Assembly: GCF_017433805.1 (NCBI RefSeq)
Contig: NZ_JAFRGN010000027.1
Location: forward strand, 1-64,000
From: Butyrivibrio sp.
GTDB lineage: Bacteria; Bacillota; Clostridia; Lachnospirales; Lachnospiraceae
Length of the DNA stretch: 64,000 bases
Reading direction: 5' to 3'
Shown one piece after another: positions 1-13,479 of this stretch; within the stretch, counting starts at the first letter, position 1, and the number at the start of each line of letters is the position of its first letter. Position numbers and translations under genes: made by a program. The notes under the pieces were generated by a model. The model was not told the origin of the DNA. It ran no database searches and worked only from the letters and a program-made list of their open reading frames with translations.

Positions 1-64
1 GATTTTACACGTGCTCAGCAGGCGGATTTCCATCCGTCTATTTGTTGTGTAAATAACCATGGAA

Positions 65-99
65 AAAGAGGATGCTGGAACAATTCCAACATCCTCTTT
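65..99. terminator. Rho-independent terminator hairpin
   Basis: A 13-bp stem with one mismatch (GAGGATGCTGGAA at 68-80 against 84-96) encloses a CAA loop. It is flanked by A residues on the left and T residues on the right, so it could work in both directions. It probably ends a gene lying beyond the left edge. Confidence 0.6.
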
Positions 100-196
100 A
101 AAACTTTTCCCTCATGTTACAATGCTAACTTAATGACATTGCTCGCTTATGAGCTATGGCTTTTTTAGTATATAGACACAGGAAAAGACTAAGTAT

Positions 197-349
197 ATGA
201 ACTCTCATTTCATAAATTTTCAATTAGATGGCCATAAAATTGATGCAGATACAGGGAAAGAGATGATGAAATCTGAACAAAGACCAGCAATTCGCGCCAG
301 TTGGGGACTTTTTGGGAGAGTATTCAGGAGGCAATCCGATGTGATATAA
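197..349 (+). CDS. Possible 50-residue small protein
   Basis: An ATG at 197 follows a purine-rich GGAAAAG (181-187) at a plausible distance, and the frame stays open to TAA at 347-349. The predicted peptide is basic at its C-terminus and matches no family I recognise. It could be a real small protein, the remnant of a decayed gene or chance. It lies just upstream of the J-domain/Hsp70/TIR operon, but nothing in the sequence ties it to that operon. Confidence 0.2.
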   Translation: MNSHFINFQLDGHKIDADTGKEMMKSEQRPAIRASWGLFGRVFRRQSDVI

Positions 350-457
350 TTAACGGGTTTGTAAATAAAATTGCAGCATCTTAATAGATGTTAATGTATA
401 TAATATGGTGTCGAAAGAATTATTATAAAGCCATATTGTGTTGGGGTGAGTATAGAT

Positions 458-2776
458 ATGAACAAAAGTATTTGGGAATGGCTCGGAATAGAGCCGACAG
501 GCAATATAAGTGAAATTAAGAAGGCCTATTCAGAGGCTGCCAAGAAGTATCATCCGGCTGAGCATCCGGAGGAGTTCAGACTGCTTCGTGACAGCTATAA
601 AAAGGCTATGGAATATGCAAAGGGCTGTAACGAGGGTACAGCCACAAGCCCATACATAGAAGAACATTTAGCAAGGCAGGCCAAGGAAGCATTTAAAGAT
701 AAAAAAGACAATCTGACATTCGACAATATATCAAATGTTGAAAATCCCCTTAAGAAGGCTGAAAAAGAAAGTCTGAGTTTTGATCAGATTTCAAATGCAA
801 CAAATCCTCTTAAAATGGATGAACAGAAAGAACAGGAGGAATTTGACTTTGAGCAGATAGGAAAAACTGTAGAGGAGCCGGAAAAGCCGGGACTTGATTT
901 TAGCAAAATTGATGGCATAGACAGATTGTCAGCAAGACAAAGCAGAATGCTTTATTTTGCGGGAGAGATGCTCTTTGCGGCTTCGGCAAAACCTGAAAAA
1001 TATGGTTGCAGGGAGATAGCAGAGGCTATTTTCTATAACTGGGATAAAGAGCCTTATGCAGGTGAAATAACGCCTTCCTTTATTGAACTGTTCATTGACA
1101 TGCTGGGATCTGTAAGCGGATTTGACAAGCAGGCCATAGAGGTAATAGAGAATACATTATTTGGTAATAAAAGCGGAAGTGAATATGATGAGCTTCGTGC
1201 CAGATTCAAGGCTTCCCTGATAGAAAACCCTAATGTTAAGCGTTACAAAGACAAAGCGGAGCGGAATGATATAACAAACTTTTTGATAAAGTACACCGAA
1301 ACTGCGACTCATTCGAGCAGCTTTCAATATGTTATTCCTGAAGGAAAGATCAAGCCCTTATTAAAGGGAACAGTATATCCTGTCAGAAACATTTTATTGT
1401 TTGTGGGAATGCGGCATGAGTATTATTTCATTGAAGATCTGACATTGAGGGTTAATGAAAAGACAGATGAGCTCACTATTACAGATGCAGTTAACAAGGT
1501 AATCCTTAAAGTGCCTGCTACACATAAAGATTATCAGTTCCTGTGCAGCCATCTTGTTGAATACGGATGCAAGGTTATTAGCGAAGAGAGTATAAACATA
1601 AAAACGTTTATCAGTCCATTAAACAGTGCAGGCAAGCTATTTGTATATTTTACGAGCAGGTTCAAGATGTTTGCCATATCCCTTGTTACTGCTTTTTTGA
1701 TCTTGAGTATTTTCTCTATAACAATGAATGCCGATTTTGAAAACATAATACTTAATGCTATAAGGGTATTCGTGATATTCGTCTCCTTATTAACAGTTTG
1801 GATACCTGTTGCACTATGTGCGATTTCCGGACTATCCTCAGCAGTATATCTGATAAGCATGATCTTTTTTGTTCCTGTGATTGGAGAAATGCTGCGGGAT
1901 ATTAAAAATGGAGATGCCGTGTATGAACGAGGCGCCGGAGTGTTTATTTTTAAAAGATATATAGTATCTGTAGCCGGTTCTCACTATCAGGTACTTCCTA
2001 TAGAAAAGATCATGTCTTTTAATCTGACCAAACCTGAAAGTCCGGATAGACAAGCTACTATTACCTGCAATACTACAATCGGGATCAGCAAGAGCTTTTT
2101 TGCTGGATTATATACACCTGCCATGGCTGTGTATATGCTATTGGAGGAAAGACTGCACGCTATAAAAGAGCAGCTTTTGTCTCCTTCACTTGAGAGAAAG
2201 TATGAACGTCTTAAAGCCCGTAAAATAAGACCATTTCTTAGTCCCTTCTTACTTGACAGAAACATGAGGGACACCTACCAGATGGCTGCTGCTGTTATTC
2301 CTATAGCTATAGCTGCTACAACTTTTGCTGTACTAGATTATGCTAATGCTGGGTCACGCAGCTATCAAGGAATGTTGTTTTATAGAGAGGCAGCAGCTGC
2401 CGTACTATTTTGCCTGGTAGGACTTATCAGCCTTATTCCGATTTGGAGTTTTAGAAGATATTCATCCGAGCTTCTTATAAACATCGGAATACAGTGCAAG
2501 CATATGCCATCTTATTACAACAAAGTGTACGGAATATATGTACTCAAAGACTATTTTGTATCAATAGATAAGTGGATGCTTACAATCATTCCATATAACG
2601 ATATTGTAGCAATAGGCAAAGAAGTTATTGGCGGGAAATCCGTGATCAGAATACAGACAACAGATAAAAAAGGGTACGTCTGGGGAAATAACAAAAACGT
2701 ACAAGCCAGGATCAATGCTCAAAACATCAATGAGATACTGGGGCATTACGTTGAGCTTACTAAGAAGACTGCATAA
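458..2776 (+). CDS. Membrane J-domain-like protein, first gene of a J/Hsp70/TIR operon
   Basis: The N-terminal 60 residues resemble a J-domain (helix II KKAYSEAAKKY, then RDSYKKAM), but the hallmark HPD is HPA at residues 32-34. Residues about 80-150 form an acidic linker with repeated [LF]xFxxI motifs, two of them followed by NPLK. Hydrophobic segments near residues 403-423, 437-480, 608-628 and 648-668 predict a membrane protein. The regions between and after them look like small beta-rich PH-like modules; that last point is inference. The ATG at 458 is preferred over GTG at 446 because GGGGTGAG at 443-450 is then correctly spaced as the ribosome site. The gene ends 32 bp before an Hsp70 gene, so it is probably the membrane-bound partner of that chaperone. 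The exact role is unknown. Confidence 0.75.
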   Translation: MNKSIWEWLGIEPTGNISEIKKAYSEAAKKYHPAEHPEEFRLLRDSYKKAMEYAKGCNEGTATSPYIEEHLARQAKEAFKDKKDNLTFDNISNVENPLKKAEKESLSFDQISNATNPLKMDEQKEQEEFDFEQIGKTVEEPEKPGLDFSKIDGIDRLSARQSRMLYFAGEMLFAASAKPEKYGCREIAEAIFYNWDKEPYAGEITPSFIELFIDMLGSVSGFDKQAIEVIENTLFGNKSGSEYDELRARFKASLIENPNVKRYKDKAERNDITNFLIKYTETATHSSSFQYVIPEGKIKPLLKGTVYPVRNILLFVGMRHEYYFIEDLTLRVNEKTDELTITDAVNKVILKVPATHKDYQFLCSHLVEYGCKVISEESINIKTFISPLNSAGKLFVYFTSRFKMFAISLVTAFLILSIFSITMNADFENIILNAIRVFVIFVSLLTVWIPVALCAISGLSSAVYLISMIFFVPVIGEMLRDIKNGDAVYERGAGVFIFKRYIVSVAGSHYQVLPIEKIMSFNLTKPESPDRQATITCNTTIGISKSFFAGLYTPAMAVYMLLEERLHAIKEQLLSPSLERKYERLKARKIRPFLSPFLLDRNMRDTYQMAAAVIPIAIAATTFAVLDYANAGSRSYQGMLFYREAAAAVLFCLVGLISLIPIWSFRRYSSELLINIGIQCKHMPSYYNKVYGIYVLKDYFVSIDKWMLTIIPYNDIVAIGKEVIGGKSVIRIQTTDKKGYVWGNNKNVQARINAQNINEILGHYVELTKKTA

Positions 2777-2808
2777 TTAAATTTATAATGAGGGAAGTGT
2801 GAAAAAAG

Positions 2809-4551
2809 ATGATAGTTGGAATAGATTTAGGTACTACAAATTCACTTGTAAGCGCCTGGACAGATGAAGGAATTACACTAATTCCTAATGAATTCGGAGA
2901 ATATCTTACCCCTTCAGTTGTTTCTTTTGATGGAAAAGAGGCCATTGTGGGTAAGACAGCCAAGGAAAGGCTTGTTACTCATCCTGATAAGACAGCAAGT
3001 GAGTTCAAGAGACAGATGGGAAAAGATGTCAAATATAATCTTGGACTTGGACGCTCTTTTACCCCGGTTGAGTTGTCTGCGATAGTACTCAGAAAGCTTA
3101 TCGCTGATGCAGAAAAGTATATTGGGGAAAAGGTGGATTCTGCCGTAATAAGTGTTCCGGCCTACTTTGATGATCATCAGAGAGAGGCTACAAGAATGGC
3201 AGGAATCAAGGCAGGAATTAAGGTTACACAGCTTGTTAATGAGCCTTCAGCAGCGGCTTTATCCTATCACTATGACAACATGGATCAGGATGATAAGTTT
3301 ATAGTATTTGACTTTGGAGGCGGAACGCTGGATGTTACGCTGGTTGAGGCCTTTGATAATATGGTTGAGATCTGCAATATTTCTGGTGACAATGCACTCG
3401 GAGGCAAGGATTTTAACGAGATCATAGCTCTGGATATCTGCAAGAGCCATGGCATAAACTGGGATAAACTTGATAACAGGAATAAAGCTGTTCTGATAAA
3501 TTGCGGAGAGAGTATCAAGATCAGGCTTTCAGACAGCGATACTACCAAAACAGTTGTAAATGCAGCAGGGGATGAATTTGAGTACGAACTTGACCAGCAA
3601 AGGTTTATCGATATTTCTGCTTCTGTATTCAGAAGGCTTACTATTGTTCTGAAAAGGCTCATGAATGATGCCAGTCTATCGACTGACGATATTGACGGAG
3701 TTATCATGGTTGGCGGATCTTCCAAGATGCCAAGTGTCAGAGCCTATATGGAATCTCTTTTCCCGGGCAAGATCATGGTTGATCCTCAGGGGGATGTGGC
3801 TATCTGCAGAGGCGCAGGAATTGTGACAGGTATCAATTTGAGAAAAGAGTCAGTAAAAGACATAGTCATGACAGATATTTGTCCATTTTCCCTTGGAGTA
3901 GAAGTAATAGGCGATAAAATGGCAGTCATTATCCCTAAGAACCAGATTCTTCCCTATAGTAAGCAGAACAAGTTTTATACTGTCAGCAATATGCAAAAGA
4001 AAATTGAATTTAATGTCTATCAGGGCGAGAAGCTCAAGGCTTCAAGTAACCTTAAGCTTGATACTATCGTGCTGGATGTCCCACCAAGGCCCAAGGGAGA
4101 AGTCTTTGCAAATGTCAGATTCTCTTATGATCTTAATGGTATTTTTGATATCGACATTTATTGCCCTGCAAATGGAGCTGAGATTCACAGAAGCCGCGGT
4201 GCTCAGGATGGAATTGATCAGGATGAGCTGATGAATATCAAGCTCAGGATGGATGAGCTTAAGCAGGATCCAAGAGAAATTCCGGAGATCAAGTATCTTC
4301 TTGAGAAGGCACAGAGACTGTACGAAGAGGGCAATCAGATACAGAGACAGTTCCTCGAAGAGGAGATATACAGCTTTAATGACCTTTTGGACAGAGCTTC
4401 GATAATTGACTGCAAGAAGGCGGCAGCAGTCTTCTCTATTAGACTTGACAGGCTGGAAAAGAGTATGTTCAGTTTTGACAATGAGGCTGAAGATCTCTGG
4501 GAACAGTATATTGAGGAAAACATGGAAAATAAAGATCCGGATAAGGTTTGA
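2809..4551 (+). CDS. Hsp70-family chaperone (HscC/DnaK-like)
   Basis: Clear Hsp70: the phosphate-1 motif IDLGTTNS is at residues 4-11, phosphate-2 GGGTLDVT is near 170, and the adenosine motif VGGSSKMP is near 301. A DICPFSLGVE segment opens the substrate-binding beta domain near residue 355. The helical tail (about 480-575) is shorter than in housekeeping DnaK, and 580 residues fits the HscC-like class. There is no grpE or canonical dnaJ beside it; instead it sits between a degenerate J-protein and a TIR protein. The ATP-binding motifs look intact, so it should bind ATP. I infer a specialised chaperone that folds, holds or gates its membrane neighbours. It is certainly an Hsp70; the specialised role is a guess from context. 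Confidence 0.92.
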   Translation: MIVGIDLGTTNSLVSAWTDEGITLIPNEFGEYLTPSVVSFDGKEAIVGKTAKERLVTHPDKTASEFKRQMGKDVKYNLGLGRSFTPVELSAIVLRKLIADAEKYIGEKVDSAVISVPAYFDDHQREATRMAGIKAGIKVTQLVNEPSAAALSYHYDNMDQDDKFIVFDFGGGTLDVTLVEAFDNMVEICNISGDNALGGKDFNEIIALDICKSHGINWDKLDNRNKAVLINCGESIKIRLSDSDTTKTVVNAAGDEFEYELDQQRFIDISASVFRRLTIVLKRLMNDASLSTDDIDGVIMVGGSSKMPSVRAYMESLFPGKIMVDPQGDVAICRGAGIVTGINLRKESVKDIVMTDICPFSLGVEVIGDKMAVIIPKNQILPYSKQNKFYTVSNMQKKIEFNVYQGEKLKASSNLKLDTIVLDVPPRPKGEVFANVRFSYDLNGIFDIDIYCPANGAEIHRSRGAQDGIDQDELMNIKLRMDELKQDPREIPEIKYLLEKAQRLYEEGNQIQRQFLEEEIYSFNDLLDRASIIDCKKAAAVFSIRLDRLEKSMFSFDNEAEDLWEQYIEENMENKDPDKV

Positions 4552-4561
4552 GGTTTTAGAA

Positions 4562-7500
4562 ATGAGTTTACATTATAACGCGTTTATTTCCTATAAGCAT
4601 GCTGAACTTGACAACAAGGTGGCGGCAGCTATTGAGTGGGATCTTGAGCACTACCACATTCCTAAAAAAATACAGAAAAAGACAGGCTACAAGAAGATAG
4701 AGAGGATATTCAGAGACAAGGATGAACTCCCTATTACAAGTGACCTTAGTAATACTATTGAGGAGGCACTTTTTAATTCGGATTTCCTTATTGTTTTGTG
4801 TTCTACAAACACACATTTATCCACCTGGGTTGAGAGAGAGATTAAGCTCTTTTTACAAAATCATCCTCAGGAAAATGTGCTTACTGTCTTAGTTGACGGT
4901 GAGCCACATGATGTAATTCCGCAGATTCTCCAGAACAGAGAGGTTGAGAAATATAATGAAAAGGGTGAACTGGTCAAAGAACTTGTGCCAGTTGAGCCAC
5001 TTTCCTGTGACTATCGTCTTCCAAGAAGAGAAGCTAAGAGCGTAGAGCTTCCAAGACTTGCAGCAACTCTTATTGGCTGTTCTTATAATGAGCTTATGAA
5101 TAGACAGCGTCAGTACAAGATGAAGAGACTTACAGCGATCTTCTCAGGTGCAATGGCACTTGCTGTTGGCTTTGGCGCATACATGCTCTATAGTAACGCA
5201 AGGATCAACGAGAACTACACCCAGTCACTGATCAGTCAGTCCAAATATCTTTCAAATGCTTCAGGTCAGCTTCTTAATGCGGACAAGAGAATAGATGCGC
5301 TTCACCTTGCACTGGCTGCACTTCCTAATGAAGAGAACCCGGACAGGCCGATTATCCCTGAGGCTGTGAGTGCTCTTACCAAGGCATCACTTGCTTATAC
5401 AGCTACAAAAGGCTCCAGCATTTCTGCGACCTGGAACTACAATATGCAGGATCTGGTCAAGGACTACTATATTGATAGGTTTGGCTGCTCTTTTGCTGCC
5501 ATGGATAAGTCAAATAATATCAGAGTCTGGAACAGGGATACACATGAGCTTTTATATGAATACACATCTCTTGATAAAGAAGCTCAGTCATATGCGTATA
5601 TTGCAACAGACCTGCTTCTTATCTGCAGTTCCAAGTATATGCAGGCTGTGGATGTGACTACAGGTACAATTAAGTGGGAAAAAGAACAGCTTGGTGGGGA
5701 TGACGTTATAGCAACGCTTATCACGGAATCTCCTGTTGTTATGGAGGATGGAAGTGTTCTTATAGGAACCTACGATGATGGACTGTTCAAGCTATCAGCA
5801 GAAACAGGTGAGATTCTGGAAAGATATATTATTGAGCCTGAAGATGCTGATAAATACACTGCTAGTGTAGAATTTGACGGTTTTAAGCTGTCTCCAGACC
5901 AGAAGAACATTATATTCAAGGGACAGGATGATCATTATTCTGATACAAAGATCATCTTCTACAATCTGGAAACAAAGGAGCTTCGCACGGTTGACCTTGT
6001 AGAAGCAGGTGTTCTGCAGTCTGGCTACTATCTTGATAGATATGATTATGTTGATAAAGACAATATCATGCTGGTTGTGGATACTACAGAAGGCTACGGC
6101 TCTTATGGCTTCCTTGATATGGATGTTCTGACTACGAACTATAGGACAATTTACTGCATTGATGCCAACAAGTTCGAGTTAAAATGGACAAATGTATTTA
6201 GCTATAATGCTATTCCATATGGCTCAAGATTCATAGATCTGTATAACTCTAATGAGATCTGCTATTGCTGCGGAAACATGATCAGTGTGTGGGATAAGGA
6301 TACAGGAGAACTCCATGAAGAGTTCAATGTCAACGAGAGTATTGTTGGCGTAGCTGATTCACATGATGGCAATTATCCAAGTTTTATTACCAGAAGTGGT
6401 AAAATGGGCAATCCGATCACTGTTCAGGGCCTTACTAACATGGCTGTACAGGATACCTTTACAAGTGGAATTGAAATGATTGCTTTTGGAAAAGGAGCTT
6501 ATGTAAATACCGACAATTCGAGCACTATTATCTTTTATGAGCAGGGCGTTCATGATAGTGAGTATAAAGACTTTGATAATACCCCAGAGTTTAAGAGCAT
6601 TTTAGATAATGATTACCGTCTTGAGGGTGACGTGCTCGCAGTTCTGGCTGCTACAACTGATGGAAGCAAGACAATGATGGCATTCTTTAATGCTGCAACC
6701 AAAGAGTTCATGGGCCAGGTACAGATAGGCGGTGATGATACCTACAGTTTTCAACTGGTGGGCCTTAAGGATGATATAGCACGAGTTACCCATAAAGAAG
6801 ATGATAGTCTGGTACTTCTTGAAATAGATGCTCATACTCTTGAGGTAAAAAAGACAACGATTGAAGAAGATTACTCTTTATCTTTTGTGGATCCGATCTA
6901 TTCAAATGGGAAGCTTATCTTCTTCAGAAATCCAATTATAGAGGGAATGTCCATAGTTGTAAAAGATATGGAAACTGGAAAAGAGGATACCTTCGGAATT
7001 GAGAAAACTGTATACAGCTGGGGATATAACGAGGAGTTAAATCTTCTCTACGTTGCTACTAAAGCCTTTGATGCTGTGATCGACCTTGAGACACATGAAA
7101 ACTACGAGGTCATTCATTCAGCGGACTGGGAACAAACTAAATGTATTACCATAGATTCACAGAATAAGAGAATTATGGTATCAGACAATCAGTACGTTCA
7201 GATGCTTGATCTTGAAGGCAATGAAATATTTAAAGTGCGTACTCCTAACGTAGAAGTATATGGTATGACCATATATACTCCTAAAAAGGAAGGCTCCAGA
7301 ACAGAATTCCTTGCAGCATATGGAAATGGTGATATCTACAGATATGATGCAGAGACAGGTGAGTATCTCGGAAGGTCTGAACTTGCATATAATAAGGTTT
7401 ATGATAATGCATCATTTACCTTCGACTATGAGCAGAATGTATTGTTCCTGAAGCTTGGTTCACTCCTTAGCCTTATTGATCTTGATAGCTGGAAATTGAT

Positions 7501-7696
7501 CACATATATGAATTCAGAGCTTGCATATCACAAGCCTACTGATACATTTCTAGTTTATGCCTACGATACTATCAAGGAGTCAAGGGTAGGATATTTCAGG
7601 CATTATACTGTAGAAGAACTTATCCAGAAGGGTAATGACATGCTAAAGGGCCAGGAGATGAGTGAAACACTCAAGGATACCTACGGACTTAAATAA
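4562..7696 (+). CDS. TIR domain - transmembrane - beta-propeller protein
   Basis: The start is set at ATG 4562, 10 bp after the Hsp70 stop; an upstream in-frame ATG at 4406 lies inside the Hsp70 gene and is rejected. Residues 1-175 form a TIR-like domain (FISYKHAELD, then FRDKDELP, then a STWVEREI helix). Glu93 in WVEREI lines up with the catalytic Glu of NAD-cleaving TIRs such as SARM1. A single membrane helix covers about 190-210. Residues 290-1044 carry repeated WD40/PQQ-like blades (for example IRVWNRDTHE, VWDKDTGEL, IYRYDAETGE). The topology implies a TIR on one side of the membrane and a large propeller sensor on the other. Similar TIR-propeller proteins are common in Clostridia, to my knowledge without assigned function. 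NADase activity is inferred from one residue and not shown. Confidence 0.85.
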   Translation: MSLHYNAFISYKHAELDNKVAAAIEWDLEHYHIPKKIQKKTGYKKIERIFRDKDELPITSDLSNTIEEALFNSDFLIVLCSTNTHLSTWVEREIKLFLQNHPQENVLTVLVDGEPHDVIPQILQNREVEKYNEKGELVKELVPVEPLSCDYRLPRREAKSVELPRLAATLIGCSYNELMNRQRQYKMKRLTAIFSGAMALAVGFGAYMLYSNARINENYTQSLISQSKYLSNASGQLLNADKRIDALHLALAALPNEENPDRPIIPEAVSALTKASLAYTATKGSSISATWNYNMQDLVKDYYIDRFGCSFAAMDKSNNIRVWNRDTHELLYEYTSLDKEAQSYAYIATDLLLICSSKYMQAVDVTTGTIKWEKEQLGGDDVIATLITESPVVMEDGSVLIGTYDDGLFKLSAETGEILERYIIEPEDADKYTASVEFDGFKLSPDQKNIIFKGQDDHYSDTKIIFYNLETKELRTVDLVEAGVLQSGYYLDRYDYVDKDNIMLVVDTTEGYGSYGFLDMDVLTTNYRTIYCIDANKFELKWTNVFSYNAIPYGSRFIDLYNSNEICYCCGNMISVWDKDTGELHEEFNVNESIVGVADSHDGNYPSFITRSGKMGNPITVQGLTNMAVQDTFTSGIEMIAFGKGAYVNTDNSSTIIFYEQGVHDSEYKDFDNTPEFKSILDNDYRLEGDVLAVLAATTDGSKTMMAFFNAATKEFMGQVQIGGDDTYSFQLVGLKDDIARVTHKEDDSLVLLEIDAHTLEVKKTTIEEDYSLSFVDPIYSNGKLIFFRNPIIEGMSIVVKDMETGKEDTFGIEKTVYSWGYNEELNLLYVATKAFDAVIDLETHENYEVIHSADWEQTKCITIDSQNKRIMVSDNQYVQMLDLEGNEIFKVRTPNVEVYGMTIYTPKKEGSRTEFLAAYGNGDIYRYDAETGEYLGRSELAYNKVYDNASFTFDYEQNVLFLKLGSLLSLIDLDSWKLITYMNSELAYHKPTDTFLVYAYDTIKESRVGYFRHYTVEELIQKGNDMLKGQEMSETLKDTYGLK

Positions 7697-7703
7697 TGAT
7701 ATT

Positions 7704-7733
7704 AAAAAAGACGCTTGTTTAAGCGTCTTTTTT
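7704..7733. terminator. Bidirectional terminator
   Basis: A 13-bp A/T-flanked perfect stem (AAGACGCTT at 7708-7716 against 7721-7729) has a GTTT loop and a T run on the right and an A run on the left. It ends the TIR operon on the plus strand and overlaps the end of the convergent membrane-protein gene. Confidence 0.85.
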
Positions 7734-8378
7734 TTCGTCCTTTATTATGTACAGAAGAGCGAAGGCTATCAGGAATAACTCTCCGAACATACTTATAAAA
7801 AAGATTATGTCTTTTCGTCCGATTGCAGGTCCGAGGCCGGCAAAGAAGAACATCAAAAATGCTGATAAAAACAGGAATGGATTCTTTTGCTTCTTCCAGG
7901 CTATGATTCCGCACACGATCATTGGAATAACTGTTCCAAAGGAAAGTAAGGCAGATACTATAATTGCCCAGGTTGGTGATGAATGGGACATTGAGTGTCT
8001 CATGACATCCTGATACTGCACTACTTCGAGTTTTAAGGCAAAAGCATGAGCAAGGCCAAGGGCGATGACAATTGCAGTGAAGGCCCAGATGATCTTCATG
8101 GTGCGAGGCTTAGCCTTTAGACCATAGCCACATATAGGTATGAGCAGCGGAATAAGTGTTCCGTGAGCTATGAAGCGAATTCTGCTGATGTTCTCTGGGA
8201 GACCACCATAAGGAGCACCGATCGCGATAAAGAAAGCATCAATAAAAAGTCCGATACAGATCAGTAACACACAAAGAGTCATAGGTCTTTTAGTGCGAAG
8301 GTATCTCTTAAGAAGTGTCGCAGCAAGAAGCAGCTCCAGCGTAGCAATGATACCGATTAATGTAGTTAAATGCAGCAT
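7719..8378 (-). CDS. Seven-helix membrane protein of unknown function
   Basis: About seven hydrophobic helices span nearly the whole 219 residues, separated by short loops. The C-terminus is charged (IIKDEKKDA), and there is no signal peptide or soluble domain. I do not recognise the family. It stands alone, transcribed convergently with the TIR operon and divergently from the sigma-factor operon, and its last codons lie in the shared terminator. The composition (Gly/Pro kinks in helices, His in the HAMSHS-like middle loop) does not allow a substrate to be named; a small receptor-like or transporter-like role is possible. Confidence 0.7.
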   Translation of the reverse strand: MLHLTTLIGIIATLELLLAATLLKRYLRTKRPMTLCVLLICIGLFIDAFFIAIGAPYGGLPENISRIRFIAHGTLIPLLIPICGYGLKAKPRTMKIIWAFTAIVIALGLAHAFALKLEVVQYQDVMRHSMSHSSPTWAIIVSALLSFGTVIPMIVCGIIAWKKQKNPFLFLSAFLMFFFAGLGPAIGRKDIIFFISMFGELFLIAFALLYIIKDEKKDA

Positions 8379-8531
8379 GATATGTGTAAATACTCCTTTA
8401 CATTGATATAATTATTATGAACATACCTAAAATAGGCAGTTTAGGTGTGTATACAATATTTTATCAAAAAATTTTGAAAATGTTGAAGACTTTTTTATTT
8501 CTATTTCGTTATATCTAATGAAGGGGCAAGA

Positions 8532-8567
8532 GTACAGACTTATTCCATATTGTTGATAAGTTTGTAC
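8532..8567. promoter_or_regulatory. 12-bp inverted repeat in the leader of the sigma-factor gene
   Basis: GTACAGACTTAT at 8532-8543 pairs with ATAAGTTTGTAC at 8556-8567, with one G-U pair and a 12-base spacer. There is no T run behind it, so it is more likely an operator or 5' leader hairpin than a terminator. Confidence 0.5.
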
Positions 8568-8576
8568 CTGGGCAAA

Positions 8577-8590
8577 ATTCGCTGGCGAAT
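8577..8590. promoter_or_regulatory. 14-bp palindrome ATTCGC-TG-GCGAAT
   Basis: A near-perfect palindrome lies 22 bp before the sigma-factor start codon, downstream of the larger inverted repeat. It could be an operator. No -10/-35 pair typical of ECF autoregulation is obvious around it. Confidence 0.35.
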
Positions 8591-8611
8591 AATCTATGAA
8601 AGGAAGAAACA

Positions 8612-9133
8612 GTGGGGAATACAGATTCTAAAGAAAAGTTAATACAGCTGATGAACTCATATAAGAATCTTGTGTTCTCTGTATGCCTCAAGCTTACAGG
8701 TGATTATTTCGCAGCGGAAGATATAGCCCAGGAAACCTTCATTTCGGCATATGAACATCTTGATGAGTTTGATGGAACTTCGGAAAAAGCCTGGCTATGC
8801 AGAATTGCAAGTAATAAGTGTATCGACTATCTCAAGGCGGCAGAGCGGCGCGCAGTTCCGGCTTCCGATGAGGAAACACTTCTAATGGAGAGTACGAGGG
8901 ACGGTCCACCGGAAGTCTTCGCTACCAGAGATGTACTACAGGAAGTAGAGGGCAAATGCAAGGACCTTCCTGAAGGCTACGCTGAGATAGCGAGAATGTA
9001 CTTCATGGGAAGCATGTCGGCCCGGGAAATATCAGACAAGATGGGCATTCCTGTTAAAACAGTACAAACAAAGATATACAGAGCCCGGGAAATGCTAAAG
9101 AAAACTGTGAGAAAGGAGGATCTGCTGGCATGA
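8612..9133 (+). CDS. ECF-type RNA polymerase sigma factor
   Basis: At 173 residues it has the two-domain form of group IV sigma factors. Region 2 covers about residues 15-80 (AAEDIAQETFISAYEHL, the core-binding and -10 melting segment). Region 4 covers about 118-165, with the helix-turn-helix AREISDKMGIPVKTVQTKIYRARE that reads the -35 box. It starts at GTG 8612 behind AAAGGAAG. The last four bases overlap the next gene (ATGA), which is expected for a sigma factor and its regulator. It should direct a small regulon, probably including its own operon of membrane proteins, which suggests envelope stress. The signal is unknown. Confidence 0.92.
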   Translation: MGNTDSKEKLIQLMNSYKNLVFSVCLKLTGDYFAAEDIAQETFISAYEHLDEFDGTSEKAWLCRIASNKCIDYLKAAERRAVPASDEETLLMESTRDGPPEVFATRDVLQEVEGKCKDLPEGYAEIARMYFMGSMSAREISDKMGIPVKTVQTKIYRAREMLKKTVRKEDLLA

Positions 9134-9573
9134 GTAAGGATTATGAATATTTATCTGATCAGGAACTTAATAGTCTCATTGAGAGCGTAGAGGCGGAAGG
9201 TATTGTAAATGCTCCGGAAGATTTTATGACTGAAGTTCTGGACAACATTGTAGAAATAGACAAGTACAGAATTACAGCTGTACCTGGACCAAGTAATAGA
9301 AATATTCTTGATTATAGTATTTATTGCCTCAAGGTCTTTGGATCAATAGCCGCAGCAATCCTTATCATGGTGATGGTTCCATTTATCAGAGGAGCTGAGC
9401 GGGTTCCGGACAGAGCAGAGATTGTATCTCAGATTTCAGTTCCTTCCAAAGAGGATGTGGTTTCTCAAAAACCAGTGAAATCAAAAGAAGAAGTTTTGAA
9501 TAAGCAAACGCAAGCCCCTGATTTTATTACAGATATTGAGACATGGTTTGACAGTTTACCTATTAGTAAATAA
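9130..9573 (+). CDS. Probable anti-sigma factor, single-pass membrane protein
   Basis: It overlaps the sigma-factor gene by 4 bp, so the two are translationally coupled. The N-terminal cytoplasmic part (about 60 residues) is acidic, a single hydrophobic helix lies near residues 70-88, and a short outer tail follows. The tail repeats a VSQxxVxSKE[DE]V unit twice in tandem. It lacks the HxxxCxxC zinc motif of ZAS anti-sigma factors. The assignment therefore rests on position and topology, not on a conserved domain. It probably holds the sigma factor at the membrane until a signal releases it. Confidence 0.6.
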   Translation: MSKDYEYLSDQELNSLIESVEAEGIVNAPEDFMTEVLDNIVEIDKYRITAVPGPSNRNILDYSIYCLKVFGSIAAAILIMVMVPFIRGAERVPDRAEIVSQISVPSKEDVVSQKPVKSKEEVLNKQTQAPDFITDIETWFDSLPISK

Positions 9574-9588
9574 GCGGAGGATCATATT

Positions 9589-10170
9589 ATGAAACCAACT
9601 AAGAAAAATAACTTTTTTACCTTTATATTCTCATTCCTTCCTGGAGCAGCTGAGATGTATATGGGCTTTATGAAGAATGGATTCAGCATACTTGCCATAT
9701 TCATGGGAGCATGTGCACTGTGTGTGGCAGGAGCAGATTTCATGATGCCAATCGTATTTCTGATCTGGTGCTATGGCTTCTTCCATGCCAGAAATGTAGC
9801 CAAACTTGATGATGCAAGCTTTGCCGCATTTGACGATGCCTATGTATGGGAAGAATTTGACACAAAAAGAGCTATCAATGTTCCAGCAGATAAACTTAGA
9901 ATTGGTGCAGCTATTGTACTTATCTTTGTTGGTCTTGGCATTATCTGGAACTATGTAAGTGAAATAATTATTATGCTTATTCCTAATGAATATTGGGATT
10001 ATCTGTATCCTATTATTTACAATATTCCTAGCGTAGTGATCGCTATTGCTCTTATTGCATTTGGTGTTATGCTCATCTCCGGCAAGAAAAAAGAGCTCGC
10101 AATTCCTAAGAATGCAGCAGATGTTGTAGCTACAGAGGTCTTCGTAGCTAAGGATGTTAAGACTGATTAA
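9589..10170 (+). CDS. Small membrane protein with TM2-like N-terminus
   Basis: The N-terminus (FLPGAAEMYMGFMKNGFS then a hydrophobic helix) resembles TM2-type membrane domains, and two more helices follow near residues 100-122 and 135-162. The C-terminus is a soluble tail. It lies 15 bp after the anti-sigma gene behind a good GGAGG site, so it belongs to the sigma-factor operon. Function is unknown; location suggests a membrane or envelope stress output, and a part in signal sensing is also possible. Confidence 0.65.
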   Translation: MKPTKKNNFFTFIFSFLPGAAEMYMGFMKNGFSILAIFMGACALCVAGADFMMPIVFLIWCYGFFHARNVAKLDDASFAAFDDAYVWEEFDTKRAINVPADKLRIGAAIVLIFVGLGIIWNYVSEIIIMLIPNEYWDYLYPIIYNIPSVVIAIALIAFGVMLISGKKKELAIPKNAADVVATEVFVAKDVKTD

Positions 10171-10205
10171 TTAGGTTAACAGATACTAAGGAAGGAATTA
10201 TATCT

Positions 10206-10511
10206 ATGGATAATACAATAAGAGTACATAGAGTAGGCTCTATCACCACAGGCCTGGGAATGATAGCTATTGGTGTAGCATTTCTTCTTCACCTGTTCCT
10301 TGGCATAGTCAGCTACGAGCTGATCTTCAGACTGTGGCCACTTATGATAATTGGTCTTGGAATCGAGCTTCTCATTTCAAACTTTATGACAGATAAGATT
10401 GTGTACGACAAGGCAGCAATCTTTCTGATGATAGTGATTGTGTTCTTCGCAATGGGAATGGCCGGAGCAGATATGTGCTTTGAACATATTGGTGATGCGA
10501 TGATGTTCTGA
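10206..10511 (+). CDS. Small LiaF/LiaI-like membrane protein
   Basis: This 101-residue protein has three hydrophobic helices. The WPLMIIGLGIELLIS segment is characteristic of the LiaF/LiaI-type transmembrane region found in cell-envelope stress modules. It is the last gene of the ECF sigma operon, 35 bp after the previous gene, and is followed by a strong terminator. Known LiaI/LiaF proteins act beside envelope-stress regulators, which fits this operon, but no substrate or partner can be read from the sequence. Confidence 0.65.
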   Translation: MDNTIRVHRVGSITTGLGMIAIGVAFLLHLFLGIVSYELIFRLWPLMIIGLGIELLISNFMTDKIVYDKAAIFLMIVIVFFAMGMAGADMCFEHIGDAMMF

Positions 10512-10835
10512 GTTTCTCTGAATTTTCTGAGTTTTTCTTTTGGTATTGGAGTGTTACGATATTGCAGCTAAGAGTTATCTGTATTGCAAATGATTTTTAC
10601 TGCTGATTTTAGAAAAAGACAAATCCAGCGGTAGCCTGAATTATTGGTTACTGCCAGATTTGTCTTTTTTGAGTTTTGATAGTAACAAACTCATTTATGC
10701 CCCAGAAAATATATTCATCCATTCCCAAAGAACAAGAAAATCAATAATTTATAGAGAAATAAGCGAATATTAAATCGGAATATGTATTAATATAATAGTA
10801 GAACCAATACAACTTCCACCCTCAAGGAGTATACC
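10512..10835. other. Intergenic region between the sigma operon and nth
   Basis: It contains the terminator of the sigma operon (10613-10670), then an A/T-rich stretch that must carry the nth promoter. TAATAT-like boxes occur near 10790-10797, but no well-spaced pair stands out. The CTCAAGGAG ribosome site lies just before the nth start. Confidence 0.5.
10613..10670 (+). terminator. Strong terminator of the ECF sigma operon
   Basis: AAAAAGACAAATC pairs with GATTTGTCTTTTT, and an inner GCGGTAGCC pairs with GGTTACTGC through G-U pairs. The result is a long hairpin ending in a T run. Confidence 0.85.
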
Positions 10836-11489
10836 ATGACCAAGAAAAAGCTTGCATTAGAAGTAATTGAGAGACTAAGAAAAGAATATCCTGATGCAGT
10901 CTGCACGCTGGCTTATGACAAGGCATGGCAGCTTCTGGTAAGCGTGCGTCTGGCTGCCCAGTGCACTGATAAAAGAGTAGACATGATAACTCCATTACTA
11001 TATGAGAAGTATCCAACCCTGGAGGCTTTGGCAGATGCTCCTGTGGACAAGATCGAAGAGATAGTTCGCCCATGCGGTCTTGGTAATTCCAAAGCCAGAG
11101 ATATTTCTGCATGCATGAAGATGCTAAGAGATGAGTACGGCGGAATAGTACCGGATACTATGGAGGAACTTCTTAAACTCCCTGGAGTTGGCAGGAAGAG
11201 CGCCAATCTTGTCCTTGGTGATGTTTATGGTAAGCCTGCAATAGTGACAGATACCCACTGTATCAGACTCTGTAATCTTATTGGCCTTGTTGATAACATC
11301 AAGGAACCAGGCAAGGTGGAAAAAGAGCTATGGAAGATCATCCCTCCAGAAGAAGGAAATGCACTTTGTCACCGTTTCGTAACACACGGAAGAGAAGTGT
11401 GTGTTGCACGAAGGCCAGACTGTGACAGATGCTGTCTCAAAGATATATGCAAAACGGGAAAAGCAACTATAAAGAAAACAACCAAGTAA
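10836..11489 (+). CDS. nth: Endonuclease III (DNA glycosylase/AP lyase)
   Basis: Base-excision repair enzyme that removes oxidised pyrimidines and nicks abasic sites. The helix-hairpin-helix LPGVGRKSAN carries the catalytic Lys, and the catalytic Asp lies in VTDTH. The four cysteines of the 4Fe-4S cluster are spaced C-x6-C-x2-C-x5-C at the C-terminus (CVARRPDCDRCCLKDIC). The 217-residue length is normal. It starts at ATG 10836 behind AAGGAG. It precedes fbp by 34 bp and may be co-transcribed with it, although the two have no functional link. Confidence 0.97.
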   Translation: MTKKKLALEVIERLRKEYPDAVCTLAYDKAWQLLVSVRLAAQCTDKRVDMITPLLYEKYPTLEALADAPVDKIEEIVRPCGLGNSKARDISACMKMLRDEYGGIVPDTMEELLKLPGVGRKSANLVLGDVYGKPAIVTDTHCIRLCNLIGLVDNIKEPGKVEKELWKIIPPEEGNALCHRFVTHGREVCVARRPDCDRCCLKDICKTGKATIKKTTK

Positions 11490-11523
11490 CCAGTGACCAC
11501 AGTTTCATCTAGTTAGGGGAAAA

Positions 11524-13479
11524 ATGAGAGATATCGAATATTTACGACTTCTTAGCAAAGAATTTCCAAATGCAAGAAAGGCAGGGGCAGAGATAATCAA
11601 TCTGCGTGCTATTTGTGCCCTTCCCAAGGGAACAGAGTATTTCTTTTCAGATATTCATGGAGAGTATGACAGCTTCTCACATCTTCTTAGAAGCTCATCC
11701 GGTATCATAAGAGCCAAGATTGAAGAGACCTTCGGAAATATGATGTCAGAGGCAGAGCAGCTTGAGCTTGCCAATCTCATATACTATCCAAGAGAAGCAA
11801 TCAGTAAATACAGGCACGACGAGAACACTGATGCCAAGGTTCTTCATGAGTACCAGAAGATAGCCATCAACAGACTCATTGCAATCTGCAGGGTTGTTAG
11901 CTCTAAGTACACCAGGTCCAAGGTCCGCAAGAAGATGCCTCAGGACTACGCCTATGCCATAGATGAGCTTTTGCATCTCGACATAAATGACGGCAACAAG
12001 AAGCTCTATTACAATGAGATCATTAGCGGAATCATAGAGATAGATTCTGGAGATGAATTCATTATCGCGCTTTGCGAGCTTATCCAGAACCTTACAATCG
12101 ATTCTCTTCATATTATAGGTGATATTTTCGACAGAGGCCCAAGACCTGATCTTGTTATGGAAGAAATCATGAACTTCCATGATGTTGACATTCAGTGGGG
12201 CAATCATGATATAGACTGGATGGGAGCAGCCTGTGGTAATGAGGCTTGTATTGCCAATGTACTTAGAATAGGAACCAGCTATAACTGTTTTGATGCGCTG
12301 GAGGATGGTTACGGGATCAACCTTCGCCCTCTTTCCATGTTTGCTGCAGAGGTTTATGGGGGTGACCCTTGTACGTGCTTTAGACCACATCTTCTGGACG
12401 AGAACAAATATGATTCAGTTAACCCTGAGCTTGCAGCCAAAATGTGTAAGGCAATCACTATTATCCAGTTCAAATTAGAAGGACAGCTTATCAGGAAGCA
12501 CCCTGAGTATAAGCTTGATAACAGACTCCTTCTTGATAAGGTGGATTACAAAAAGGGAACCATTACTATAGGTAAAAAGACCTATCAGCTCAAGGATACA
12601 AACTTCCCGACAATAGATCCTGCAAATCCATATGAACTGACAGATGAGGAAAAAGAGCTTATGCGAACACTTCGCTTTAGCTTTATTCATTCGCAGCTTC
12701 TTATTAAGCATGTTCAGTTTCTATATTCCCACGGCGCTATGTACCGGACTGTTAACAATAACCTTTTATATCATGGCTGTATTCCCATGGATGATAAGGG
12801 CGAGTTCATGTGCATGGAAACCAGAGATGGCAAATACGCAGGGAAAGAGCTTATGGATTACCTTAATGTTAAGATTCATGATGCCTTTTTCCTTGATCCA
12901 AGAGATGATGCAGACAAAAAACAGGATGCAGTTGATCTCATGTGGTATCTCTGGTGTGGCCCCAGGTCACCTCTTTTTGGAAAAGACAAAATGACAACCT
13001 TTGAGCATCTCTTTTTGAGTCAGGAAAAAGACCTTTGCGTTGAGAAGTTCAATCCATATTACAGTTTTTCTGCGAAAGAGGAGTGTGCAGACAAACTCAT
13101 AAAAGAATTTGGACTTGATCCTGAATGGGCGCATATCATAAATGGCCATGTACCTGTTAAGACCAAAAAGGGAGAGAGTCCCGTTAAGGCTGGCGGTAAG
13201 CTCTATATCATAGATGGCGGAATATCCAAGGCATATCATGAGCAGACGGGTATTGCGGGATACACACTTATTTTTAATTCTCATCATCTTGCTCTTGCTG
13301 CCCACAAACCTTTTGTTAAGGGACAGGAGAACACGCCTGCGATTCAGATCACAGAGAAGACCAAAAAGAGGATTCTTGTGAAAGACACAGATATCGGAAA
13401 GGGCTTACAGAGACAGATTGAAGACCTCAAAGAATTATTATCGGCATATGAGAGTGGTTTGATTAGAGAGAGGTTCTAA
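11524..13479 (+). CDS. fbp: Fructose-1,6-bisphosphatase, class III
   Basis: Gluconeogenic enzyme that hydrolyses fructose-1,6-bisphosphate to fructose-6-phosphate. At 651 residues it is the large Firmicute class III type, unrelated to class I. The metallophosphatase motifs are visible: SDIHGEYDS at about 42-50, GDIFDRGPRP near 199 and WGNHDIDWMG near 225, which bind the two metal ions. The gene starts behind AGGGGAAAA and is followed by its own terminator. In this fermentative organism it complements the gap-pgk-tpiA cluster 36 kb downstream. Confidence 0.96.
   Translation: MRDIEYLRLLSKEFPNARKAGAEIINLRAICALPKGTEYFFSDIHGEYDSFSHLLRSSSGIIRAKIEETFGNMMSEAEQLELANLIYYPREAISKYRHDENTDAKVLHEYQKIAINRLIAICRVVSSKYTRSKVRKKMPQDYAYAIDELLHLDINDGNKKLYYNEIISGIIEIDSGDEFIIALCELIQNLTIDSLHIIGDIFDRGPRPDLVMEEIMNFHDVDIQWGNHDIDWMGAACGNEACIANVLRIGTSYNCFDALEDGYGINLRPLSMFAAEVYGGDPCTCFRPHLLDENKYDSVNPELAAKMCKAITIIQFKLEGQLIRKHPEYKLDNRLLLDKVDYKKGTITIGKKTYQLKDTNFPTIDPANPYELTDEEKELMRTLRFSFIHSQLLIKHVQFLYSHGAMYRTVNNNLLYHGCIPMDDKGEFMCMETRDGKYAGKELMDYLNVKIHDAFFLDPRDDADKKQDAVDLMWYLWCGPRSPLFGKDKMTTFEHLFLSQEKDLCVEKFNPYYSFSAKEECADKLIKEFGLDPEWAHIINGHVPVKTKKGESPVKAGGKLYIIDGGISKAYHEQTGIAGYTLIFNSHHLALAAHKPFVKGQENTPAIQITEKTKKRILVKDTDIGKGLQRQIEDLKELLSAYESGLIRERF

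Follow-up and report, generated by a model that had tools for sequence, protein, structure and literature searches.

Asp35 of the His-Pro-Asp (HPD) triplet of the J-domain protein DnaJ bonds Arg167 and Gln378 of the Hsp70 chaperone DnaK (PMC8215388), and the salt bridge between Asp35 and Arg167 drives activation (PMC13012618; this and the other papers are cited here from excerpts of their text). The closest described system to the one examined here is Escherichia coli HscC with its J-like partners DjlB and DjlC. Marks of this kind are an Hsp70 of 550-580 aa and a J partner with HPE that stimulates it without GrpE. HscC has deletions of the GrpE loop and of lid helix B and an insertion of 4-8 residues in loop L1,2, and its J-like partners have a non-HPD motif and membrane segments (PMC8215388). 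A 2026 review asks whether J proteins lacking HPD rewire the chaperone network by competing with working J domains, or recruit Hsp70 (PMC13254874). We analyzed a locus that bears on this question, in a stretch of 64,000 nucleotides from the gut bacterium Butyrivibrio sp. (assembly GCF_017433805.1, contig NZ_JAFRGN010000027.1, positions 1 to 64,000 of the forward strand; hereafter the window). Three genes on the plus strand encode a membrane J-like protein of 772 aa (458..2776), an HscC-like Hsp70 of 580 aa (2809..4551) and a protein of 1044 aa in which a TIR domain is joined through a single helix to a beta-propeller (4562..7696).

The reading that we favor, with confidence slightly above even, is that one Butyrivibrio lineage transcribes two independent modules together, namely a J-like/Hsp70 pair with a rewired contact and a membrane TIR receptor. 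The first module would be the membrane J-like protein with its own HscC-like Hsp70, and the second a bitopic receptor made of an outer propeller, one helix and a cytoplasmic TIR domain with a conserved Glu. For immunity research, an apparent single system would be split into a chaperone pair of HscC-like type and membrane TIR-propeller receptors that belong to a large family. The altered contact would offer a ready-made test of how J and Hsp70 partners work, and the three-gene defense system proposed in a first-pass annotation of this DNA would be mostly a lineage-specific neighborhood.

The chaperone pair and its HPD-Arg167 contact

The product of 2809..4551 matched Pfam HSP70 with 373.9 bits, in line with the full Hsp70 gene that had been noticed earlier. 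It is the second Hsp70 of the genome, being 35% identical to the DnaK encoded at C38:147817-149472. Its score was 324 bits against E. coli HscC, 281 against its own DnaK, 237 against E. coli DnaK and 230 against HscA, and when HscC was used as the query the window Hsp70 was again the best of the four. The best NCBIfam model was DnaK, at 362 bits, which is far under the 822-bit cut-off of that model. The GrpE signature loop and part of lid helix B are deleted as in HscC, while its own DnaK keeps both; a deletion at residues 76-101 of the nucleotide-binding domain is also present, but the DnaK of the genome has it too. As the HscC-type insertion of 4-8 residues in loop L1,2 of the substrate domain was absent in the alignment, we term the protein only HscC-like. 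Fifteen nucleotide-site and nearby residues were identical to DnaK in the window Hsp70 and in the three other members of its clade that were checked.

The J-like gene starts with ATG at 458 (or, alternatively, with the in-frame GTG at 446). Its product has an N-terminal J-like domain, then a variable linker and hydrophobic segments. Pfam DnaJ matched with 28.8 bits (cut-off 27.8) over residues 6-38 only, and a profile of the family searched against PDB matched J domains only. Hydropathy placed the hydrophobic segments near residues 404-422, 438-469, 608-626 and 645-663, all after residue 400, which bears out the membrane segments claimed earlier. The protein is longer than DjlB and DjlC, and the J-like region is the only part common to them. 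It is also less conserved than its partner: between the window and Butyrivibrio sp. VCB2006 (NZ_ATVX01000016.1; we took genome G211, which has the same genes, to be this strain) identity was 48% for the J-like protein and 79.5% for the Hsp70. With the whole J protein as query against genome contigs, the VCB2006 locus was the one locus found.

In place of HPD, residues 32-34 of the J-like protein (551..559) read HPA. In an alignment of 16 family members the His and Pro were invariant (16 of 16), and the third residue was Ala, Thr, Val or Gln, never Asp or Glu. We then aligned the Hsp70s to DnaK and compared residue 167 with the HPx triplet of the adjacent J protein. In the window Hsp70 the position of DnaK Arg167, the partner of the HPD Asp, is taken by Gln141 (codon at 3229..3231). 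In the Butyrivibrio clade to which it belongs (11 Hsp70 rows from 10 genomes; SH-like approximate likelihood ratio test (SH-aLRT) 100, column 167 being masked in the trees of the contact analysis), the J residue is Ala, Thr or Val, and residue 167 is Gln in ten rows and Leu in one. Among the 66 rows with both residues, 52 combined an acid with Arg, 11 had neither, two had Arg and no acid, and one had an acid with Cys; an acid was paired with Arg in 52 of the 53 acid rows, with three of the 52 being the E. coli references, and outside the clade HPE or NPE is nearly always accompanied by Arg. Loci L176, L177 and L188 lack a residue at 167 and are outside this table, and L176 and L177 are also outside the co-change tree. 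As judged from these residues, the bridge between the HPD Asp and Arg167 is removed on both sides in the Butyrivibrio clade. The window pair shares with HscC and the Djl proteins the 580-aa Hsp70 with its two deletions and reciprocal best match, and a J-like partner that has membrane segments and a motif other than HPD, but it has HPA rather than HPE, Gln rather than Arg at 167, and no loop L1,2 insertion. It is a variant of the HscC/Djl kind with a hallmark contact changed on two sides.

Changes on both sides of this same contact have been described in the laboratory. DnaK R167A is suppressed by DnaJ D35N (PMC13012618), DnaK R167H suppresses DnaJ D35N (PMC5519331), and in some systems replacing HPD by AAA does not fully abolish stimulation (PMC13012618). 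Because such suppressor pairs are reported, a working HPA/Gln pair is plausible by analogy; the pair in this clade would work through the remaining contacts, as they do. Tyr145, Asp148, Arg151, Asp393 and Pro419 are kept in the clade. The window pair differs from the suppressor pairs in being natural and fixed in a clade, in having a specialized Hsp70 instead of DnaK, and in being known here from its sequence. No paper on HPA/Gln167 pairs was found in the open-license literature, to which the search was confined. Residue 170 may give a second hint that the interface has co-diverged, since 24 of the 27 NPE rows have Ser at this DnaK position, against 2 of 25 HPE rows (three HPE rows have no residue there).

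Several points weigh against a rewired contact that still works. In the excerpt of PMC13254874, only HPE seems to be tolerated as a variant of HPD, and in simulations D35A blocks activation when Arg167 is kept (PMC13012618), so HPA may be inactive. The acid is lost but Arg is kept in L133 (HPQ) and L178 (HPS), L179 has HPE with Cys at 167, and outside the family the J-like protein at L241:3469-4746 has no recognizable HPx although the adjoining HscC-like Hsp70 keeps Arg167. On the tree the acid and the Arg each changed twice, and the changes fall in one clade. A test on independent pairs (200 pairings of 1-2 pairs each, a size without power) never went in the expected direction, with a fraction of 0.5 going the opposite way and 0.5 showing no difference. 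Other contact positions in the clade differ from DnaK (Val or Ala at 378, Met at 391, Ser at 477, Asn at 481), and at 378, 477 and 481 many other HscC-like rows also vary or depart from DnaK. One J gene of the family, which reads HPT (L132:9084-10763, in VCB2006), has no Hsp70 in the stretch fetched; the same genome carries the three linked genes with two TIR copies. We know of no biochemical result for the J-like protein, the Hsp70 or the TIR-propeller protein. With one clade and these exceptions the statistics for co-change are weak, and a Fisher p of 8e-10 was set aside as proof because it ignores kinship.

A second partner of Arg167 in DnaK adds to these doubts. Asp481 clamps Arg167 in DnaK (PMC8215388), and it is Asn in 23 of 25 HPE rows, in 27 of 27 NPE rows and in all 11 Hsp70s of the clade. 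As this other partner is almost generally missing here, Arg167 would be freer to drift, and our confidence that the interface is rewired but working was lowered from even to slightly under even. The same finding slightly raised the odds, which stay well under even, for the alternative that HPA, HPT and HPV have lost ATPase stimulation, that Arg167, no longer under selection, drifted afterwards, and that the protein is now a tether or a brake. HPN and QPD do abolish stimulation in tested systems (PMC8215388, PMC13254874), and the HPQ/Arg and HPS/Arg rows fit an order in which the acid was lost first and the Arg later. Such a loss of function is harder to reconcile with the invariant His and Pro in 16 of 16 J proteins, with the conservation of the ATPase residues that were checked, and with the finding that each of the 11 Hsp70 genes of the clade has an adjoining J gene. 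As this clade keeps HPD-less J genes beside their own Hsp70 with a changed partner residue, the question raised by the review becomes testable with one pair and two point changes.

Linkage of the pair and the TIR-propeller gene

To compare loci, genomes were searched for the Hsp70 at E 1e-90. It was found in 88 of the 397 genomes of the family and in 13 of the 79 of the genus, and 40 loci, a part of those found, were fetched. In these loci, chosen by the Hsp70 alone, 34 of 40 had a J gene on the same strand within 300 bp; one of the six without it, L210, is a 3-kb contig. From the other side, the J-family profile at E 1e-3 matched 150 of 200 family genomes, many over a J domain only, and in the 20 best-match loci that were fetched, an HscC-like Hsp70 adjoined the J gene in 18. 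Six loci from a search of the phylum all kept Arg167; four had a J gene with HPE (L237, L238, L240, L242), the J protein of L241 had no motif, and L239 gave no J match. The adjacency is conserved, and the J-like/Hsp70 pair is almost certainly a module of its own. It points to a physical partnership of the two proteins, in which the Hsp70 would be brought to the membrane by the J-like protein and would there aid the folding or assembly of membrane proteins.

At least two kinds of J protein occur in such pairs: some are shorter and carry HPE or a related triplet, and the others, mostly of about 1100 aa, carry NPE. The NPE proteins (L181, L187, L189, L190 and others) stand beside an HscC-like Hsp70, and TPR repeats were found in that of L181, the only one scanned. 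Two paralogous J-like genes accompany one Hsp70 gene in three loci, both before it in L127 and on either side of it in L129 and L130. In the Butyrivibrio loci L124, L129 and L131 the J-Hsp70 genes are followed by a gene for a product of 116-121 aa, and the two products scanned (L124, L129) matched Pfam PilZ.

Matches to the TIR-propeller query were found in 52 of the 79 genomes of the genus and in 26 of 200 of the family, with the window genome counted in both. By fetched loci and match coordinates, the pair stands beside the TIR-propeller gene only in the window, in G205 and in VCB2006 (3 of 52), and 41 of the 52 have no HscC-like Hsp70 at E 1e-90. Ten genus genomes carry a close pair; three of these are linked, five have the TIR protein elsewhere and two have no TIR-propeller match. 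In 30 TIR-propeller loci fetched from 25 other genera, none of the stretches held a J or Hsp70 gene. The first-pass annotation had seen here one chaperone-gated system, in which the propeller senses, Hsp70 holds the TIR inactive or assembles it, and the J-like protein anchors Hsp70; the conserved co-occurrence and order that this calls for did not appear, and the counts led us to reject the three-gene set as a general single system. In its favor is the tight spacing in three genomes. The gaps are 32 and 10 bp in the window and G205; VCB2006, which has two TIR copies downstream of the pair, has gaps of 66 and 31 bp and one of 20 bp between these copies. The flanking genes are equally syntenic in the linked genomes, so that the linkage is kept no better than the neighborhood.

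A recent exchange between species was observed when the window was compared with G205 (L122). DNA bins from 751 to 4800, which run from the J gene into the TIR gene, up to about residue 80 of its product, were 95-100% identical, while the propeller from 5401 was 52-71% identical and most bins of the downstream flank 64-87%. Fourfold-site identity was 0.98 for the J gene and 0.95 for the Hsp70 gene, against 0.39-0.55 for the flanking fbp, nth and sigma genes. The J-Hsp70-TIR start was exchanged as one block, which left each strain its own propeller. That this block runs from the J gene into the TIR gene speaks for a single system, but it also stops inside the TIR gene, and together with the counts above we regard a single system as improbable.

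The four TIR proteins of the linked loci (two of them in VCB2006) form one clade nested in unlinked ones (SH-aLRT 99). Genome G263 has two TIR-propeller copies, near relatives of these, after the same gene for a membrane protein of about 185 aa that precedes the G205 genes, and it has no pair there. Judged from its sequence, this 185-aa protein may be GtrA-like. Either the pair joined a standing TIR locus, or it was lost from the sister lineages. On this ground the genes may be neutral neighbors, with a pair that landed beside a standing TIR-propeller gene (or was lost from relatives), a shared transcript and no joint function, and we give this close to an even chance. That both modules are common apart fits it as well; the short gaps and the common orientation, which have outlasted divergence to 48% identity in the J protein and about 41-55% in the propeller, fit it less well.

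If the two-module reading holds, the receptor would be co-expressed with the pair in this lineage and would perhaps be one client of it, with most relatives managing without the pair. That the pair acts on the TIR receptor in this lineage we consider rather unlikely, and chaperone gating of the TIR would not be required elsewhere. A more elaborate arrangement is less likely still, in which both contact sides have been replaced in a couple that still cycles without cross-talk to DnaK and DnaJ, and the TIR receptor was captured in one lineage as a dedicated client whose assembly or silence depends on this private chaperone. Upstream of the VCB2006 genes, and divergent from them, L032:7168-8781 encodes a protein of 537 aa that has no Pfam match and, as judged by eye, is hydrophobic in a stretch near its N-terminus.

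The TIR-propeller protein and its DHH/DHHA1 neighbor

The TIR domain covers residues 4-124 (4571..4933, plus strand) and matched Pfam TIR_2 with 40.6 bits and ThsB_TIR with 36.8 bits, with a weak PADLOC match to ThsB (3e-4). Hydropathy predicted one transmembrane helix, at residues 190-208 (5129..5185), and residues 246-1044 (5297..7693) form a WD40/PQQ-like propeller region by Pfam and profile, the Pfam propeller matches being under their cut-offs. Together these results bear out the TIR domain fused through one membrane helix to a propeller that had been described for this gene. As five Lys or Arg stand in the 12 residues before the helix and one in the 12 after it, the predicted topology has the TIR in the cytoplasm and the propeller outside the cell.

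When the single TIR sequence was searched against PDB, nothing better than E 0.39 was found. With a profile of 35 members, TIRs of plants and bacteria were reached at E 1e-6 to 1e-3, and Glu93 (codon at 4838..4840), the WxxxE glutamate, aligned with the conserved Glu of the Roq1, L6, AT1G72930 and 7uxr TIRs. Every member has Glu93 in the alignments of 40 and of 35 members. In known TIRs this Glu is catalytic, and the window TIR is probably an active enzyme; it would cleave NAD or make a nucleotide signal once the outer part gathers the TIRs. Thoeris ThsB and other bacterial TIR effectors likewise have a TIR domain with a conserved Glu, to which the window protein adds a membrane helix and a propeller. 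No ThsA model was among the PADLOC matches of 13 window proteins, the stretch left of the contig start being out of view.

The outer propeller diverges fast, and the TIR is strongly conserved. Compared with the two VCB2006 copies, 85-98% of TIR residues were kept at a fourfold-site identity of 0.25-0.65 (20-30 sites per bin), and 36-57% of propeller residues. In comparisons of the linked relatives and of four sets of copies, the TIR bins kept 78-100% of residues and the propeller bins 28-58%. The fourfold-site identities of the TIR bins ranged from 0.25 to 0.91 in this set, and the high ones suggest that some were recently exchanged or converted. A hypervariable propeller as read from the window and G205 alone (99% identity in the Hsp70 against 55% in the propeller) was rejected, as the recent exchange of the J-Hsp70-TIR start explains it; the speed of the propeller was judged only from other genomes and paralogous copies.

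The most frequent neighbor of the TIR-propeller genes was a gene for a DHH/DHHA1 phosphoesterase (Pfam) of about 505 aa, seen in 17 of 39 loci. Of 52 genus genomes, 22 have it next to the TIR-propeller gene, and 14 of 26 family genomes have it no more than 4.5 kb away; it lies upstream, downstream or convergent (L034, L036, L037, L047, L049 and L141 among others). This gene is the best lead to the general role of the receptor. Its frequency and its varied orientations across genus and family genomes agree with a tentative view, somewhat doubtful at present, in which the phosphoesterase is the real partner of the receptor and removes a nucleotide signal made by the TIR. Against this, a TIR-propeller match is absent from 12 of the 52 genus genomes that carry the DHH gene, and in the three genomes with the linked genes the DHH gene lies elsewhere.

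Two related genes combine the propeller with a kinase. L062:7687-12000 encodes a kinase-propeller protein, in which no TIR model passed the Pfam threshold, and L058:5172-8831 a kinase-TIR-propeller fusion.

Genomic context and transcription unit

Hsp70 and a J-domain protein are also encoded together in the proposed conflict loci of the GAP1-N2 GTPase systems (the HSP70/GrpE/DnaJ-FNIII theme of Kaur et al. 2020; PMC7159879, from an excerpt). The locus studied here resembles them in this point, but the genes scanned around the three included neither a GTPase nor a GrpE gene, and a TIR-propeller gene is present instead; for the GTPase, the scan covered nine genes in 458-13479, the contig being cut off upstream.

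Phage-defense neighbors, for which the first-pass annotation had suggested looking, were not borne out when 10 further window proteins between 7.7 and 34 kb were scanned. According to Pfam, the genes that PADLOC matched at 22-34 kb (as DolB, mad3, CARF-like and others) encode ClpB-like, ABC transporter and MarR proteins, and for the genes scanned a defense-island context was rejected. An origin from a mobile element was likewise rejected, as the TIR end matched no phage record and ten plasmid records all under 60% identity, among them one from Butyrivibrio fibrisolvens at 40.6%.

The window begins at base 1 of contig C23 in a genome of 74 contigs, where the upstream side of the operon is cut off. 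A consensus scan of 1-9200 stayed at chance level, with 26 promoters against 25.8 and 7 terminators against 5.8 in shuffled sequence, and did not list the stem at 7704-7735 (plus strand). By folding, this stem with its T-run is an intrinsic terminator of -16.5 kcal/mol (z -6.15), and none of 200 shuffles was equally good. The open reading frame listing and the raw sequence gave gaps of 32 bp between the J-like and Hsp70 genes and 10 bp between the Hsp70 and TIR-propeller genes, so the compact same-strand arrangement with one strong terminator, as first described, was confirmed. This spacing suggests that the three genes share a transcript.

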